From the NCBI GenBank assembly GCA_001606155.1, contig LODT01000023.1, positions 124,001-188,000 on the forward strand: a stretch of 64,000 bases of DNA, read 5' to 3'. Shown in pieces: positions 27,919 through 54,665 of this stretch; within the stretch, counting starts at the first letter, position 1; each line of letters begins with the position of its first letter. The notes below the pieces were generated by a model. The model was given only the letters and a program-made list of their open reading frames with translations. It did not search any database and had not been told where the DNA came from. Origin of the DNA: Tieghemostelium lacteum. Taxonomy: Eukaryota > Evosea > Eumycetozoa > Dictyosteliales > Raperosteliaceae. Made by a program: the position numbers and the translations under genes.

Positions 27919-28785
27919 ATGATAAAGAATTTACTATTTAGCAGAATAAATTATAGTCCTTCTATGGATGATTTCAATCTAGAACAAAATGTTAGATTTG
28001 AAGAATTACCAAAGATTATGAAGTTGTTTAACCAGAGTATACCATTTGAGAACTTGGATGTTATGTCAAATACCACGAGAGAGATAACCAGAGAAAATGT
28101 TATTGATAAGATTCTAATTCAGAAAACTGGAGGGATGTGTTACCATTTGAATAGTTTAATGTACTATTTCTTACAAGAACAAGGGTTTAATTGCTACCAG
28201 ATATCTTCATCTGTTGATATCATGATCAAAGGTGTAAGAGTTGAACTTGATAATGTTCATATATCAACTATACTTTTGTATCAAGGTAGAAAGTATTTGG
28301 TTGATGTTGGAACTCTAGTATATCTATCTCAAGCACCTGTACTTATACCAGAATGTGGTATCACTAATGATGCTACAAGTACCCCCTATGCTGTTATAGA
28401 CTCTGATTTTGGTTTATCTAGAATTCGTGAAACCTATGAATCTCATAAAGGTAGTCATGTCTTTGAATTTATAAAAAATTCAAAAAACACAAAGGAAGAA
28501 CAAATTTGGAAATCTTTTTTGTATTTCAGTTTAGATCCTGTTATGGATGAATGTCAACTGAATCAAGCACAAGAAATAATTAAAAATCACAAACAATGTG
28601 CCTATACAAAGGCACCTGTAATTAGTAAAACCTTTAAAGATGGTATCTACACTCTAACTCCATACACATTCACCACCAACTTCTTTTCCAAAGACTGTAA
28701 AAAATCTAAAATTCCAATAGTTGACATGATAGATTACAACAAAAAACTTTTAAAATATTTTAGTATTAATCAAAATAATCTGTAA
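27919..28785 (+). CDS. arylamine N-acetyltransferase, tandem copy 1
   Basis: A single exon of 288 residues. NAT enzymes move an acetyl group from acetyl-CoA to arylamines, hydrazines or related amines through a Cys-His-Asp triad. The sequence shows IPFENLDVM early, the catalytic Cys74 in GGMCYHLN, His114 in DNVHISTILL and Asp129 in YLVDVG. The usual FG after DVG is replaced by TL. Length fits the family (~280). A near-identical copy follows at 29240..30100, so this is a recent tandem duplication. The similarity extends ~50 bases upstream of the start codon, so part of the promoter was copied too. Confidence 0.9.
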   Translation: MIKNLLFSRINYSPSMDDFNLEQNVRFEELPKIMKLFNQSIPFENLDVMSNTTREITRENVIDKILIQKTGGMCYHLNSLMYYFLQEQGFNCYQISSSVDIMIKGVRVELDNVHISTILLYQGRKYLVDVGTLVYLSQAPVLIPECGITNDATSTPYAVIDSDFGLSRIRETYESHKGSHVFEFIKNSKNTKEEQIWKSFLYFSLDPVMDECQLNQAQEIIKNHKQCAYTKAPVISKTFKDGIYTLTPYTFTTNFFSKDCKKSKIPIVDMIDYNKKLLKYFSINQNNL

Positions 28786-28909
28786 ATTAAAACTTTAATA
28801 ATATAAAAATATGTTTTCTTGATCCCTTTTTTTTCCTATAGTCGATCTTCTGGGCAATTATTTGGATCATTTAATTATTTAATTTGGAATTCAATATATT
28901 TTCTATTAG

Positions 28910-29079
28910 TTAACCAACTTTTTCTTTATTGTTGGTCTGACCCTCAATATCCAGCAATCTCTTCATATTCTCTTTACAGTTCTGGATTTTGACATTGACA
29001 CTGACATTGATATTATCATCGATATCATCTAATCATTCGTTAAATATCCTTTTGTTGGTGGTCTTAATATCCACGTACC
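28910..29079 (-). pseudogene. gene fragment between the two NAT copies
   Basis: The minus strand reads VDIKTTNKRIFNE, a stop, then LDDIDDNINVSVNVKIQ and NCKENMKRLLDIEGQ, ending with a TAA at 28910-28912. The composition looks coding, but there is no start codon and there is one internal stop, so I call it a fragment or decayed gene. Its parent is not in this window. It may have been trapped when the NAT gene duplicated. Confidence 0.4.
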
Positions 29080-29239
29080 TATTCAAAAATGATATACGTA
29101 AATAAAAATATCTAAATTTAGAAAAATTTAAAAAAATTTTAAATATAGATCTAGATATCTTATTTTTTAGTAATACTTACTACAAAAATGAATTTAAAAA
29201 ATGAAAAATTAAATTATTAATTGTAGATATATTTATAAA

Positions 29240-30100
29240 ATGATAAAGAATTTACTATTTAAAAGAATAAATTATAGACCCTCTGGTTTAAATCGAGATC
29301 AAAAAGTTAGATTTGAAGAGTTACCAAAGATTATGAAGTTGTTTAACCAGAGTATACCATTTGAGAACTTGGATGTTATGTCAAATACCACGAGAGAGAT
29401 AACCAGAGAAAATGTTATTGATAAGATTCTAATTCAGAAAACTGGAGGGATGTGTTACCATTTGAATAGTTTAATGTACTATTTCTTACAAGAACAAGGG
29501 TTTAATTGTTACCAGATATCTTCATCTATTGATATCATAGACAAAGGTGTAAGAGTTGAACTTGATAATGTTCATATATCAACTGTACTTTTGTATCAAG
29601 GTAGAAAGTATTTGGTTGATGTTGGAACTCTAGTATATCTATCTCAAGCACCTGTACTTATACCAGAATGTGGTATCACTAATAATGCAACAAGAACTTT
29701 CTATGCTGTTATAGAATCTGATTTTGGTTTATCTAGAATTCGTGAAACCTATGAATCTCATAAAGGTAGTCATGTCTTTGAATATATAAAAAATTCAAAA
29801 AACACAAAAGAAGAACAAGTTTGGAAATCTTTTCTGTATTTCAGTTTGTATTCTGTTGTAGATAAATGTCAACTGAATCAAGCACAAGAAATAATTAAAA
29901 ATGACAAACAATATGCATATACAAAGGCACCTGTAATTAGTAAAACTTTTAAATATGGTATCTATACTCTAACTCCATACACATTCACCACCAACTACTT
30001 TTCCAATGACTGTAAAAAATCTAAAATTCCAATAGTTGATATGCTAGATTACCACAAAAAACTTTTAAAATACTTTGGTATTAATCCAAATAATCTGTAA
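29240..30100 (+). CDS. arylamine N-acetyltransferase, tandem copy 2
   Basis: A single exon of 286 residues, highly similar to the gene at 27919..28785 with scattered replacements. It is two residues shorter near the N terminus (NYRPSGLNRDQK in place of NYSPSMDDFNLEQN). The triad Cys72 (GGMCYHLN), His112 and Asp127 (YLVDVG) is intact, so it should be active. Differences cluster at the N terminus and after residue ~190, which may alter substrate preference. Confidence 0.9.
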   Translation: MIKNLLFKRINYRPSGLNRDQKVRFEELPKIMKLFNQSIPFENLDVMSNTTREITRENVIDKILIQKTGGMCYHLNSLMYYFLQEQGFNCYQISSSIDIIDKGVRVELDNVHISTVLLYQGRKYLVDVGTLVYLSQAPVLIPECGITNNATRTFYAVIESDFGLSRIRETYESHKGSHVFEYIKNSKNTKEEQVWKSFLYFSLYSVVDKCQLNQAQEIIKNDKQYAYTKAPVISKTFKYGIYTLTPYTFTTNYFSNDCKKSKIPIVDMLDYHKKLLKYFGINPNNL

Positions 30101-30297
30101 ATTTAAACCTATATATATATAAAAATAAACCAACTATTGTACTAATGCATTTTACCTGTTATTTCATTAATGAAATATACTATAATATTCCTATTCCAAA
30201 ATATCATATCAAAGTTATTTTAATGTAATTTTATAAAATTACCTAAATATCAATGATATTTTGAATTTTATTTCTGTTTGAGAAAAACCATTTGTTT

Positions 30298-30508
30298 TTA
30301 TCTACGAGTAGGTCTTAATGGTGTACTAGTATTATTTGGTTTTGAAAATGTATTATCAACAAATCCTTTAATTGGTCCTCTAGCACCACCTCCACCAAAA
30401 CTTTATACATTATTTCATTTATGGTTAAAATTCAAAATTTTTTTTATCTTCAAAAGGTGATAGACTTAAAACATACGTATTTATATTTTGTCTTTTATCA
30501 AAATCCAT
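30298..30508 (-). CDS. micro-gene A, 44-residue Gly/Pro/Arg-rich peptide
   Basis: Read on the minus strand as exons 30477..30508 and 30298..30400, with a 76-base intron (GTATGT donor, ATAAAG acceptor). The protein starts MDFDKRQNIN, has a TFGGGGARGP stretch at the splice, and ends TSTPLRPTRR with a TAA at 30298-30300. It has no signal peptide and no membrane segment. A homologous gene with its intron at the same place (after Ile-Asn plus two bases) lies 230 bases away on the same strand. Two tandem copies with matching intron position and matching C-terminal Pro/Arg pattern argue against chance. Function unknown. Confidence 0.6.
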
Positions 30509-30735
30509 AATTTATTACAAATCTATTGCTACAATGTAAACTATTTTAAATATAAAAAATAATTTTTATTGTGATCAAGGTTTTTAAATTAACAGTGAAA
30601 TGAAAAAATCTAGAAAAAAAAAAAATATCTTTGTGAAATAATCTGAGATATGCACTCTGATATGTCTCTATATTTTTTCTATTTTTTTTTTTTAATTTAA
30701 CCTTGATGTTTGATATGGTATGATTTCATCTTATT

Positions 30736-30938
30736 TTATCTACCAGGTGGTCTAGGTGCTGGTCTACTATTAGTAGAAGGTCTTCCACTATTCAAAGGTT
30801 CATTAGCGAAATATGGAAGAATGCCTGCTTTTGGTCCACCTTGTAAGATACTTTTGAAATTGTTAATGAAATTTTGTTATAGAGGATTATAGAATTAAAA
30901 AACAAAACATACGGATTTATAGTATAAGTGAATGACAT
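30736..30938 (-). CDS. micro-gene B, 46-residue Gly/Pro/Arg-rich peptide
   Basis: Minus-strand exons 30913..30938 and 30736..30850, with a 62-base intron (GTATGT donor, CAAAAG acceptor). The product starts MSFTYTINP, continues with LQGGPKAGILPYF, and ends SRPAPRPPGR with a TAA at 30736-30738. It is a paralogue of micro-gene A: same strand, same intron phase and place, a Gly-rich patch after the splice, and a basic Pro/Arg C terminus of equal length. No domain is recognised. The gene overlaps nothing else and sits 420 bases from the start of the Fused kinase gene, with which it is divergent. Confidence 0.62.
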
Positions 30939-31357: not shown

Positions 31358-32258
31358 ATGGATGATAATAATTATTTGATATTAGAGTTAATAGGAGAAG
31401 GTGGTTTTGGTAAAGTTTATAAAGTGTGTATATATGATCGATAGATAATTATAGCTTATCAGGGAGATCATAATTAATAGAATAGATATCTAATTTAAAA
31501 AATTTAATATAACAACCAGTGTAAAAAAAAATCTACAGGTCAGATATATGCCATCAAACTGATAAATAAAAAAGGAAAAAATGAAAAAGAGATTAGGAAT
31601 CTCAGACAAGAGATATCCATTTTGAAAAAGTTATCACATCCCAATATAATTCAGTGGATTGATAGTTTTGAAAGTACAGTTGAATTTGGTATTGTAATGG
31701 AATATGCACATGGTGAACTCTATGATATCATTGAACATGCGGATAATAAGAGGTTTCCTGAACAGGTTATACAATCCATTTCCTCACAGTTAGTGAGTGC
31801 ATTGTACTATCTACACAGTAACAAAGTTATTCACAGAGATATTAAACCCCAGAATATTCTTATTGGCAGTCATGGTCAAATTAAAATTTGTGATTTTGGA
31901 TTTGCACGCTTACTCTCTGCTGATATTGAACATTGTTTAACTACACTTAAAGGTACACCATTGTACTTGGCACCAGAAATTGTACAAGAACATCCATATG
32001 ATCACAGAGCTGATTTATGGTCACTTGGAGTCATCATCTATGAACTCTCAAGTGGTAAACCACTATTTTCAAATCAGAATATAGTTCAACTAGTACAAAT
32101 GATTATAGAATCACCTGTAGAATTTCCATCAAACATCTCCACCAATCTCCTATCCCTTCTAAAAGGTCTATTAAACAAAGATCCAAAACAAAGATTAGAT
32201 TGGCCTGATCTTTTAACTCATCCATTTATAGCAACATTTGATAATTCAACACTTTTAT

Positions 32259-32292
<34 letters not shown>

Positions 32293-32312
32293 TAATAAAA
32301 CACCACAAAAGA

Positions 32313-32353
<41 letters not shown>

Positions 32354-35300
32354 CAAAGTTCACCAATTAGTAATAGTACTAGTGTAACAGTTATAACAAC
32401 ACCACCACAATCATCTCCATTAATAATTAGTAATTCAAAACCACCAATAAATAGTGGTCAAAATCAAAATCAGAGAAATATAAGAATAACTCCACCTACT
32501 TCACCATTAGTGAGACCAACTTCACCAATTATTGTAAATACTACTGGTACTAGTTCAACATCACCTATACAATTTAACCTATATCAGTCACCACCACCAT
32601 CATCTTCTAATAACCCATTATATCTTAGTAAAAAACCAACACCTTTATATGCCAATGTTCAATCAAGACCACAAACACCATTAATGGTTGGTCATGAGTT
32701 ACGTAAATCCACATCATCCAATTCTCTTTTGAATAATATCATTTCAAATAGACCATCTTTATCAAGACCACAAACCCCACTTTCTAGACCCTTAACCCCA
32801 AATGTTTTTAAATCAAAATTAAATATATCTCAAGTTAACAATAACAATAACAAATCTCAAAATATAAATAACAATAACAATATAAACAGTAACATTAACA
32901 ATATCAATAACAATAGTAATAACTCACAAAATTGTTTTTATTTTACACCTTCAATACCAGTATATGATAATCAACAACTTCAACATCAATATATATTTGA
33001 AAGTGTTGAATATTGGAGTTATCATGAACAATCATCACAGAATGAATCTAATTCCTCAAAATTATGTAGAGATAAAATATTTATTCAGAAATTGATTAAT
33101 CATCTATCAGGTGGTTGTTCAGGACATTTAGATAGTCTACCACTGTCAACAATACTAAAGACATTTTCAAATCTAATGAGATTTGGTAACTTTAGACAAC
33201 CTAGTAATGTGATGGTTAATGGTAGACCACAGTCTAGTAGACCTATACAATCACCACCTACCCCTACAACACCACCTGTAAATCCATTTCCACCTATATC
33301 ACCAAAATCACCAAACAGTGCTAGTACCAATACACTCATATCAGGTAGTCATCTAACTGCAGCCACTCTTCAAAATATGGATAATCAAAATATCCTAATC
33401 ACTCAAAAATCAAATCATCTAATTCTATTCATTTCATTACTTTCAAATATCCTCTCTGCTCTAATTCATAATAGTAGTGTAAATAGTAATATAATTTCAA
33501 ATCCCTATACCAATCTATTAGAGTGTTTAAATGCATTTTCTCTATTTTTAGAAAAACTTCAACCATCTTTTCTACCTCTTACCCAACCTAATAGTAACAA
33601 TAATAATAATAATATACAACAACACCCAATTTCACCACCAAAACCATCGTCTTCATCATCATCTTCTAGATCATCATCATCATCTTCATCATCCTCTTCT
33701 ACTACAATTTCCAATTTAAATAGTAATCTTGTTACATTTATTTCTATACTCAACTATCTGTGTAAAAATATCTACATGTACAATAACATTATCCAACAGA
33801 GTATATTGAAATTGTTACTACAGTTTTTTAATAGACTAAGAGAATCTGTATTACAAGTTATGGAAATCTATAGAATCATTATGGAGAATACTGATATTCT
33901 ACAGAATCTATGTACATTTTTATATCTAATGATTAAAGATCAGAATCTAATAAGATTTGATGATACCATTTCATGTCTTGCTGCATTTATTAGTACACCT
34001 CCCAATCAAATCTATGAATTTCCTTTGGATTCTAAACAAACAATGTCAACTACCATTCCTAATAGTAATGATGGTAATCATAAGATTGTATATCAATTGG
34101 CTTGTTCTATCATTGGTGATTCTCTAGCTATTGAAGTAGTTCAAGAGAAGTTATTATCTATACTTCAAGACGGTCAAAGTACACAAACTGTAAAAGTACA
34201 AATACTACAATTACTTTTACATTCATCAAGAGTCTCTAAAGCAATGGTAGAGGTTATACATAAACTCGAAAGTAACAATCAAAAATCTATACTTTTATCC
34301 ATGTTGTTACTGGATAATAGTCAACCTCAACCTGTAACTCCAATTCCAGAACTTATTCTACTGATTTTGGGTACTATTGTAACTCATTATCCAGAATCAC
34401 AAAGTTGGCTATCAGATGTTGACAGTATTCTACAACTTATCAAGAGATACTTTTGTTCAATGGATTTGAGATTGTCATCATGTGCAAGTTATTTCCTCTC
34501 AAATTTCCTTACTGAATATTTAAATTTGGAAGTTGATAATGAAACTAGTTCTACTAATAACACTAATCCTGATGATACCAAGATTTCTAGTAATATTGAA
34601 ACTTTAATTAGTTCAATACCTATTAAAAATATAAGGAAGCTATTTGGATCGAAGCGTGATGAAGGTTCTCAAAGTACACTAAGGGAACTAGAAGGAGGGT
34701 GCTTTGGTAGACCCTATCTAGGACTTTTAGATGGGTCAGCTTGTTTAGTTTTAAGATTGTTAAAAAGAGGTGGACAGGAGTTTCTAGATAGTCTATTGGA
34801 ATCTGGTATTTGGGAGAACATGTGTCATCAGATTAGTGATGGTACTCAAGGAATTGAATTGTCTCCATCTGGAATCACGGTAACTCTTAGATCAATCTAT
34901 GAGGTACTTTCTAGAGGTTCACCAGTTTTGTTATCCTATTTGGTTAAAAATAATCTTTTGATTTCACTTTGTAATCTATTGAAATCTGATCACTTGGATA
35001 GAGTACAAGAGTGGCCTGATCATCAGTTGGGTGGTTTACATGGTGTAAGTTCCATTGTAACTCAGATAATGTTCATTCTCTATCTTCCATTGTCATCGAA
35101 TGCCAAAGAGACTTTAGATAGTAGTCTAAGTAAACTCATTCAACATTACATGTTAAATAATGATCTTACTCGTAATATCATTGTACTGCTACCACAGTTA
35201 CCTTTAGAGTCACTTGAGTTACCTTTAGGTCTACTCTCCAATGTCATTTTAGAAGACAACCAATTCTCTCAACAGTTTATAGATTGTGGTGGTTTAGATC

Positions 35301-36079
35301 CAATGCTTATTCAACTTCTTCTAAACACTGACAGAAACAGTGTGGTTTTGTTAGTTGATACTCTTATAATTCTCAGTCAACTCGCTAGAATATCACAAGA
35401 CAATTACAAACCAATTCATAAATCTGATATCTATCCATGTCTAAAAAGACTACTGGATCATGAGGACCCATCTGTCAGAGCCAAGACATGTAATCTCATA
35501 GGAAATATGTTCAAATTCAATAGTTACTTTTACCACTATCTAAGAAAATATGAAATTATACCTCAACTCATTCAATGTTGTTCCGATCCTGACGGAAACA
35601 CTAGAAAATTTGCATGTTTTGCAATAGGAAATGCTGCATTTCATACAGATGAACTTTATGATGTTCTAGAAGACAGTATTGAACCTATGGTATCATGTTT
35701 GGAATCCAATGACGAAGATGAAAAAACTAGGTTTAATGTCATAGGTGCTCTTGGAAATCTAGTTAGAAATTCAGATCATCTATGTCCGCTAATACTAAAT
35801 TCAGGTGCATTGGATATTATTTTGGAGTATTTTGATCAGATTACTGATATGATAATTGACCAAGATCCACAACAACAACAACAGCAACAAGATTATGTAC
35901 GTTATAATCTGTTAAAAACCATTTTATTCTCTTTGGGACATTTCTGTATATACGATGATTTTAAAACAATACTACTTTCCAATTTCAATTTTGTAGAGAA
36001 ACTAAATCAATTAAATCTGATGAATAATACATTATTGTCAAAGAATCTATCAAGAATTAAAAAATCATTACAAATCTAA
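31358..36079 (+). CDS. tsuA: Fused/Tsunami-type protein kinase with ARM repeats
   Basis: Exons 31358..31423 and 31520..36079 encode 1,541 residues. The kinase domain spans residues ~8-260: Gly loop IGEGGFGKVYK across the splice, ATP-binding Lys35 in YAIKLINKK, HRDIKPQN (127-134), DFG (147-149) and GTPLYLAPE, so it should be active. The sequence closely follows Fused/STK36. The Dictyostelium orthologue, Tsunami, is needed for cell polarity and chemotaxis. The middle (~265-800) is low complexity with poly-Asn, Ser and Pro tracts. The C-terminal ~700 residues are helical repeats of ARM/HEAT type, for example DPSVRAKTCNLIGNMF and DGNTRKFACFAIGNAAF, as in plant TIO and animal Fused. The first exon is needed for the Gly loop. 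Confidence 0.92.
32262..32354 (+). repeat. AAT trinucleotide tracts in the kinase gene
   Basis: Two AAT-rich runs (about 32262-32302 and 32314-32354) encode poly-Asn broken by a short Lys/Thr/Pro/Ser segment. They lie directly after the kinase domain and are typical dictyostelid codon repeats, likely variable in length between strains. Confidence 0.85.
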
Positions 36080-54155: not shown

Positions 54156-54665
54156 ATGTCATTTTCAATGAACAAATCACTAAAATTGATTTTAGGTGGA
54201 TATGCAGTTTCCATCAATGTAGGATCTGCAGGATTATTTTACTATGATAAACAACAAGCTATACAACATAAATGGAGAGTTAGAGAATCAACATTACAAT
54301 TATCAGGTTTACTAGGTGGATGGATTGGTGGAATGTGGGCAATGCAAGCATTCAAACATAAGAGATCTAAAGAATCCTTTAAAAATGTATGTATATTCCT
54401 AAGATATTTATAAATCTATAAATACTAATAAAATAATACTATATAGAAATATTATGCGTGTGTTGCAGGAAATGTTATTTTAATACCAATTATTGCAAAA
54501 TTCTATAAACCTTTATTATCAATGATTACAAAACAACAACCACAAATCACAAATAATATTCCAAATCCAAATCAATCATTTAAAAAACAAAACTTTTCAA
54601 ATAACCAGAATAATAATAATTTTAAATATAATAAGAGCAGCAGGAAAAATAAGAATAATAATTAA
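54156..54665 (+). CDS. DUF1294-family small membrane protein
   Basis: Exons 54156..54386 and 54447..54665 (donor GTATGT, acceptor TATAG) encode 149 residues. The DUF1294 core is visible: a first hydrophobic helix with FYYDKQQAIQHKWRVRE, then STLQLSGLLGGWIGGMWAMQ and the basic FKHKRSKESFKNKYY across the splice, then a further hydrophobic segment (VAGNVILIPIIAKFY). In bacteria the family reads xxxDKxxAxxxxxRIPExxLLxLAxxGGxxGA...FRHKTxKxxF, which fits well. Function of the family is unknown. The Asn/Lys-rich tail is lineage-specific. Its 3' end is 24 bases from that of RPF1. Confidence 0.82.

Follow-up and report, generated by a model that had tools for sequence, protein, structure and literature searches.

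When two very small spliced frames lie side by side and share one splice pattern, does that pattern speak for a gene twice, or only once? The question is raised by a locus of Tieghemostelium lacteum within the window analysed here, a stretch of 64,000 nt from contig LODT01000023.1 (assembly GCA_001606155.1, forward-strand positions 124,001 to 188,000). The GC content of the window is 25-36% in 2-kb steps, and the host genome comprises 23.33 Mb in 43 contigs. On the minus strand, a pair of putative micro-genes fills the gap between two arylamine N-acetyltransferase genes and a kinase gene, the latter being in divergent orientation relative to the pair. In window coordinates, the neighbours and the parts of the two copies are as follows:

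27919-28785, plus strand: arylamine N-acetyltransferase gene, the upstream one (Pfam Acetyltransf_2, E 1.2e-31)
29240-30100, plus strand: arylamine N-acetyltransferase gene, the second one (Pfam Acetyltransf_2, E 1.8e-29)
30508..30298, minus strand: copy 2, whole (exon 1, intron and exon 2; 44 aa)
30477..30508, minus strand: copy 2, exon 1, 32 nt, MDFDKRQNINT, last codon split
30401..30476, minus strand: copy 2, putative intron, 76 nt, from GTATGT at 30476 to AAAG, 20% GC, ending in GTATAAAG
30298..30400, minus strand: copy 2, exon 2, 103 nt including the stop, 34% GC
30938..30736, minus strand: copy 1, whole (exon 1, intron and exon 2; 46 aa)
30913..30938, minus strand: copy 1, exon 1, 26 nt, MSFTYTINP, last codon split
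30851..30912, minus strand: copy 1, putative intron, 62 nt, from GTATGT at 30912 to AAAG, 19% GC, ending in TTCAAAAG
30736..30850, minus strand: copy 1, exon 2, 115 nt including the stop, 41% GC
31622-36079, plus strand: long frame of a kinase with HEAT repeats, whose first exon, judged by eye, appears to lie at 31358

The acetyltransferase genes (27919-30100, plus strand) are themselves another pair of same-family neighbours, adjoining the micro-gene pair. Between them, at 28900-29040 on the minus strand, lies a fragment that looks coding by eye and is possibly the remnant of a gene.

The first-pass annotation had described two minus-strand micro-frames with tiny first exons, GTATGT donors, AAAG acceptors and introns in the same phase, and all of these features are indeed found where it had placed them. 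In both copies the frame is complete from ATG to stop across a GT-AG intron, the intron is in phase 2, and an A occupies position -3 of the ATG. The GC content of exon 2 (41% in copy 1, 34% in copy 2) compares with 18-20% in the flanks. A TAG acceptor inside exon 2 of copy 2 would give a product of 37 aa, but it was rejected, having no matching site in copy 1. A U12-type intron was also set aside, the donor being off the U12 consensus.

The two copies are related at the DNA level. Their global alignment score is 98.5, as against 36.4 +/- 9.3 in 1000 shuffles (maximum 73, none as high), and comparison with 1970 segments of the window gave a maximum of 70, so that none reached the score of the copies. 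Their best local match covers the last 37 nt, stop codon included, and was equalled in 4 of 1000 shuffles. Two pairs of shared blocks can be delimited:

30904..30921, minus strand: 18-nt block across the junction of exon 1 and donor in copy 1, 17/18 identical to 30468-30485
30468..30485, minus strand: its partner in copy 2, 17/18 identical to 30904-30921
30727..30772, minus strand: 46-nt block across the C-terminal end of copy 1, 72% identical to 30289-30334
30289..30334, minus strand: its partner in copy 2, 72% identical to 30727-30772

These blocks are collinear, with spacings of 436 nt for the 18-nt block and 438 nt for the 46-nt block. Well kept between the copies are the donor, the acceptor AAAGT and the last 37 nt including the stop. 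Among 43 matches to the 18-nt donor block with at most two mismatches in the genome (23.3 Mb), only the two copies carry its exact pattern. Collinear similarity at neighbouring places and above chance is the mark of tandem duplicates, and it is present here: the locus is a real tandem duplication, old and diverged. The shared architecture was inherited from one ancestor and is therefore one observation, not two. It had been argued that the same architecture in two neighbours is hard to obtain by chance; this holds true, but its cause is the duplication, which makes it no independent evidence of coding.

A single micro-model of this kind is easily found. Within the window, 5 of the 30 GTATGT sites give one, whereas shuffled windows average 4.8; since shuffled windows yield as many, a single model carries no weight. 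In the sequence analysed outside the window, 11 of 67 GTATGT donors do the same, with no close pair in the same phase among them, which brings the overall count to 16 of 97. The models from outside the window are a mixed bag, and at least one of the 11 (83 aa) seems to be part of a larger gene, presumably an exon similar to one of sideroflexin. This 83-aa model lies with another of 49 aa inside one 3-kb locus (L026, contig C19 around 417918). The abundance of micro-models, together with the presence of same-phase pairs no more than 600 nt apart in 11 of 200 shuffles, would suit the idea that the copies are unrelated and resemble each other by accident. This idea is disfavoured and very improbable given a global DNA score above all 1000 shuffles and all 1970 segments, and given the collinearity of the blocks. 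When exon 2 of both members must reach a GC fraction of at least 0.33, a limit chosen post hoc, after inspection of the data, same-phase pairs are found in 0 of 200 shuffles.

Are the splice sites those that the genome ordinarily uses? A survey of 198,504 bases from 34 sources provided 19 introns, deduced by joining open frames rather than from transcripts, with donors of the form GT[AG][ATG]G and the first fitting AG taken as acceptor. GTATGT is the usual donor type (12 of the 19), and the putative introns of 62 and 76 nt are within the range of lengths inferred (52-133 nt). Acceptors are TAG in 17 cases, with one CAG and one AAG. The AAAG acceptor of both copies is thus atypical for this genome, and being a single inherited event, it is counted once. 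Elsewhere in the window, at 54333-54665 on the plus strand, a small spliced frame is made of a 54-nt exon, a GTATGT donor, a 60-nt intron ending in ATATAG and a 219-nt exon. Its predicted product of 90 aa includes a hydrophobic stretch and ends in a tail rich in Asn and Lys, and its best Pfam rows are at chance level (E 0.15 and 0.17). Because its splice sites are of the genome's usual type, this frame may have a stronger claim to be a missed small gene than the pair at 30298-30938.

That the frames exist and that the copies are related is established, which upholds part of the initial description as tandem spliced micro-genes; translation, the other part, is a reading of the sequence that needs a more guarded wording. 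The minus frame of exon 2 has a codon score of 21.7 bits in copy 1 and 19.8 bits in copy 2, to be compared with a median of 10.4 for in-frame 35-codon windows of long ORFs and a 99th percentile of 10.8 for other frames. However, each copy also faces an open frame on the opposite strand:

30707..30892, plus strand: competing open frame facing copy 1, 61 codons from stop to stop, not headed by an ATG
30257..30460, plus strand: competing open frame facing copy 2, 67 codons from stop to stop, not headed by an ATG

The plus frames score 20.4 (copy 1) and 17.5 (copy 2). Since plus and minus frames share their third codon positions, codon bias cannot separate the strands. The copies might then be the last exons of small plus-strand genes, with first exons located elsewhere. 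In favour of this reading, both plus frames are open, longer than the minus frames and well scored, and over the whole frame, from FYL to the stop, the similarity of their peptides reaches z 3.15 in the global and 3.03 in the local shuffle test. We nevertheless consider it unlikely. Neither frame has an ATG at its head; over 30100-30760, the only donor-like sites upstream on the plus strand are those at 30308 and 30718; and the donor block shared by the copies would fall beyond the stop. In the part opposite exon 2, plus-peptide similarity (z 2.17 global, -0.46 local) is below that of the minus peptides.

For the minus peptides themselves, the global shuffle test yields z 3.1 over exon 2 and 3.6 over the spliced frame, and the local one z 1.3-1.4, where 554-579 of 5000 shuffles do as well. 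Some mismatched pairs of frames reach z 2.5-2.7, near the 3.1 of the proposed minus frame, and BLASTP of one copy's peptide against the other's gives E 0.23. Identity between the copies is 45/55 aligned sites in the putative intron, 17/23 in exon 1 and 64/103 in exon 2, and the 62% of exon 2 does not exceed the gapped background of 66%. The 39 DNA differences were redistributed at random over the 103 aligned sites of exon 2 in 20000 runs. This placement gave mean minus-peptide similarities of 21.3 and 25.8 versus 22 observed, with the minus frame of exon 2 still open in 4745 and 8932 runs. For the plus strand, the 20 observed opposite exon 2 is lower than the means of 28.3 and 31.8. DNA similarity is therefore enough to account for the similarity of the minus peptides, which is about equal to, or below, that of random placement. 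By this test, no protein-level constraint was detected between the copies, over some 35 codons that give it low power.

Such results suit a duplicated pair that is non-coding or decaying, derived from a promoter, a small RNA or a former gene, with minus frames kept open by GC content and chance. Besides the lack of detected constraint, this alternative draws on the putative intron being the best-kept part of the copies, on the atypical AAAG acceptor of both, and on the absence of a relative in Pfam, NCBIfam and PDB. In one variant, a TATA box, and not a piece of exon 1, could be what the TATAAAT of the shared 18-nt block represents. This word is frequent in the window (48 sites per strand), but 7 of 12 further genes or first exons that were checked also have a TATAAA[TA] within 300 nt, so it is uninformative either way. 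Against a non-coding origin speak the rise in GC at exon 2 and the codon score of that exon, and no Rfam match reaches the gathering score in the window, a local scan giving two rows at chance level. The spliced frame, moreover, rarely survives decay: when copy 1 was left to decay in simulation without constraint, a spliced frame of at least 40 codons was left in 13-25 of 2000 runs under the lightest setting and in 0-2 of 2000 under heavier ones. We hold the non-coding or decaying pair to be a serious possibility, though it falls short of an even chance. The minus-strand spliced frames have about one chance in two of being coding as drawn, and that the peptides are actually made is only moderately likely. 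The fuller proposal, of an old tandem duplication of a small two-exon minus-strand gene for basic, probably disordered microproteins, perhaps with PxxPxR tails, stands in our judgement evenly balanced between right and wrong.

Under that proposal, each copy would be transcribed separately and lose its intron of 62 or 76 nt, and the product of each would be a soluble basic microprotein (pI about 11), probably disordered and devoid of a signal peptide. The predicted peptides have pI values of 10.9 and 11.5 and are rich in Gly, Pro, Arg and Asn. As read from the sequence, neither N terminus (MSFTYTINP, MDFDKRQNINT) has a hydrophobic signal sequence, and a secreted peptide was rejected for want of a hydrophobic start in either copy. 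The predicted tryptic products are AGILPYFANEPLNSGRPSTNSRPAPRPPGR and GFVDNTFSKPNNTSTPLRPTR, Lys-Pro and Arg-Pro bonds being resistant to trypsin. Single-sequence AlphaFold modelling of the exon-2 open frame of copy 1 (46 residues, of which the first nine are intronic) gave a pLDDT of 66.9 and a pTM of 0.24, with a single helix (residues 2-12) that falls largely within the intronic lead, and the rest unstructured; the plus frame, modelled likewise, gave 58.4 and 0.29. Such single-sequence models are weak evidence, and are uninformative for both frames.

PxxPx[RK] is the pattern of class II SH3 ligands, and the C-terminal tails RPAPRPPGR (copy 1) and PLRPTRR (copy 2) each contain it, as PRPPGR and PLRPTR. 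In both peptides it lies within the last seven residues, but not at aligned residues. Composition yields it cheaply: it appears in 782 and 249 of 5000 shuffles of the peptides, and in 1343 and 444 of 5000 if shuffling is confined to the last 15 residues. Given this cheapness and the unaligned positions, which set the tails apart from known class II ligand peptides, their role as SH3 ligands is putative and no more than a lead. For the role of the product, the most economical guess is, weakly, a disordered ligand peptide. The tails might act as unstructured ligands occupying an SH3 or other proline-binding domain of a partner, a step that we think improbable, and the two copies might have diverged in partner or timing. 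More improbable still is the complete picture, in which a family of spliced microproteins specific to this lineage would use its disordered basic tails, with a C-terminal PxxPxR, as SH3-type decoys in two diverged copies.

Searches for relatives were made at several levels. Pfam and NCBIfam hold no relative of either peptide, and in PDB copy 1 had no match, while copy 2 had a single row at chance level (E 0.28). In the genome itself, protein and DNA searches recovered only the query's own place and no third copy; as they missed even the sister copy, their sensitivity is low, and a diverged third copy is possible. A DNA profile built from the two copies and run over the window and further loci recovered both copies only (18 rows, from the window and overlapping loci), while the corresponding protein profile had the copies' own fragments among the matches listed. 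The plus frames have no Pfam match, and when viral contigs were compared with the plus-strand frame, 10 stretches fitted a pattern and none was a relative. A known non-coding RNA was rejected on the Rfam results given above, and a repeated or mobile element on the DNA search, which found no other copy in the genome. As for the literature, nothing on this pair was present among the matches listed.

Between the copies, at 30575-30712, an imperfect inverted repeat could form a long hairpin (-24.3 kcal/mol, z -3.7). Equal stability was found in 1 of 200 shuffles, and runs of A and T add to it. A DNA search of the genome found no second copy of the hairpin, and Rfam gave it no match at gathering score. 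In dictyostelid Class I RNAs, the DUSE is found about 60 nt upstream. The Class I RNAs of D. discoideum are molecules of 42-65 nt that carry an 11-nt motif, are closed by a terminal stem of 6 bp and have a DUSE upstream (PMC7919456). The likeness is that of short RNA elements whose ends pair; the hairpin differs in spanning about 138 nt and in the Rfam result.

How does the pair compare with known systems? Like smORF microproteins, the predicted products have fewer than 100 codons, are easily missed by annotation, and are basic and probably disordered; known smORF microproteins differ in having documented translation, whereas that of the present pair is putative. Absence of a detected relative is also shared with the lineage-specific genes of dictyostelids. 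These are ordinary in T. lacteum, where one study counts 1852 among 10,224 genes (PMC8535579), and for D. lacteum another reports 21 novel genes (PMC5282741). The micro-gene pair is best described as plausible but unproven, and ordinary in kind.

If the copies are untranslated, the locus would illustrate that a splice pattern shared by two neighbours may fail to be independent evidence of coding, because duplication copies the pattern. If they are translated, they would be very small spliced genes of a type liable to be missed by annotation, which have undergone duplication and divergence in place. They would then offer two natural versions of one microprotein that can be compared with each other, in a group used for studying the origin of multicellularity.
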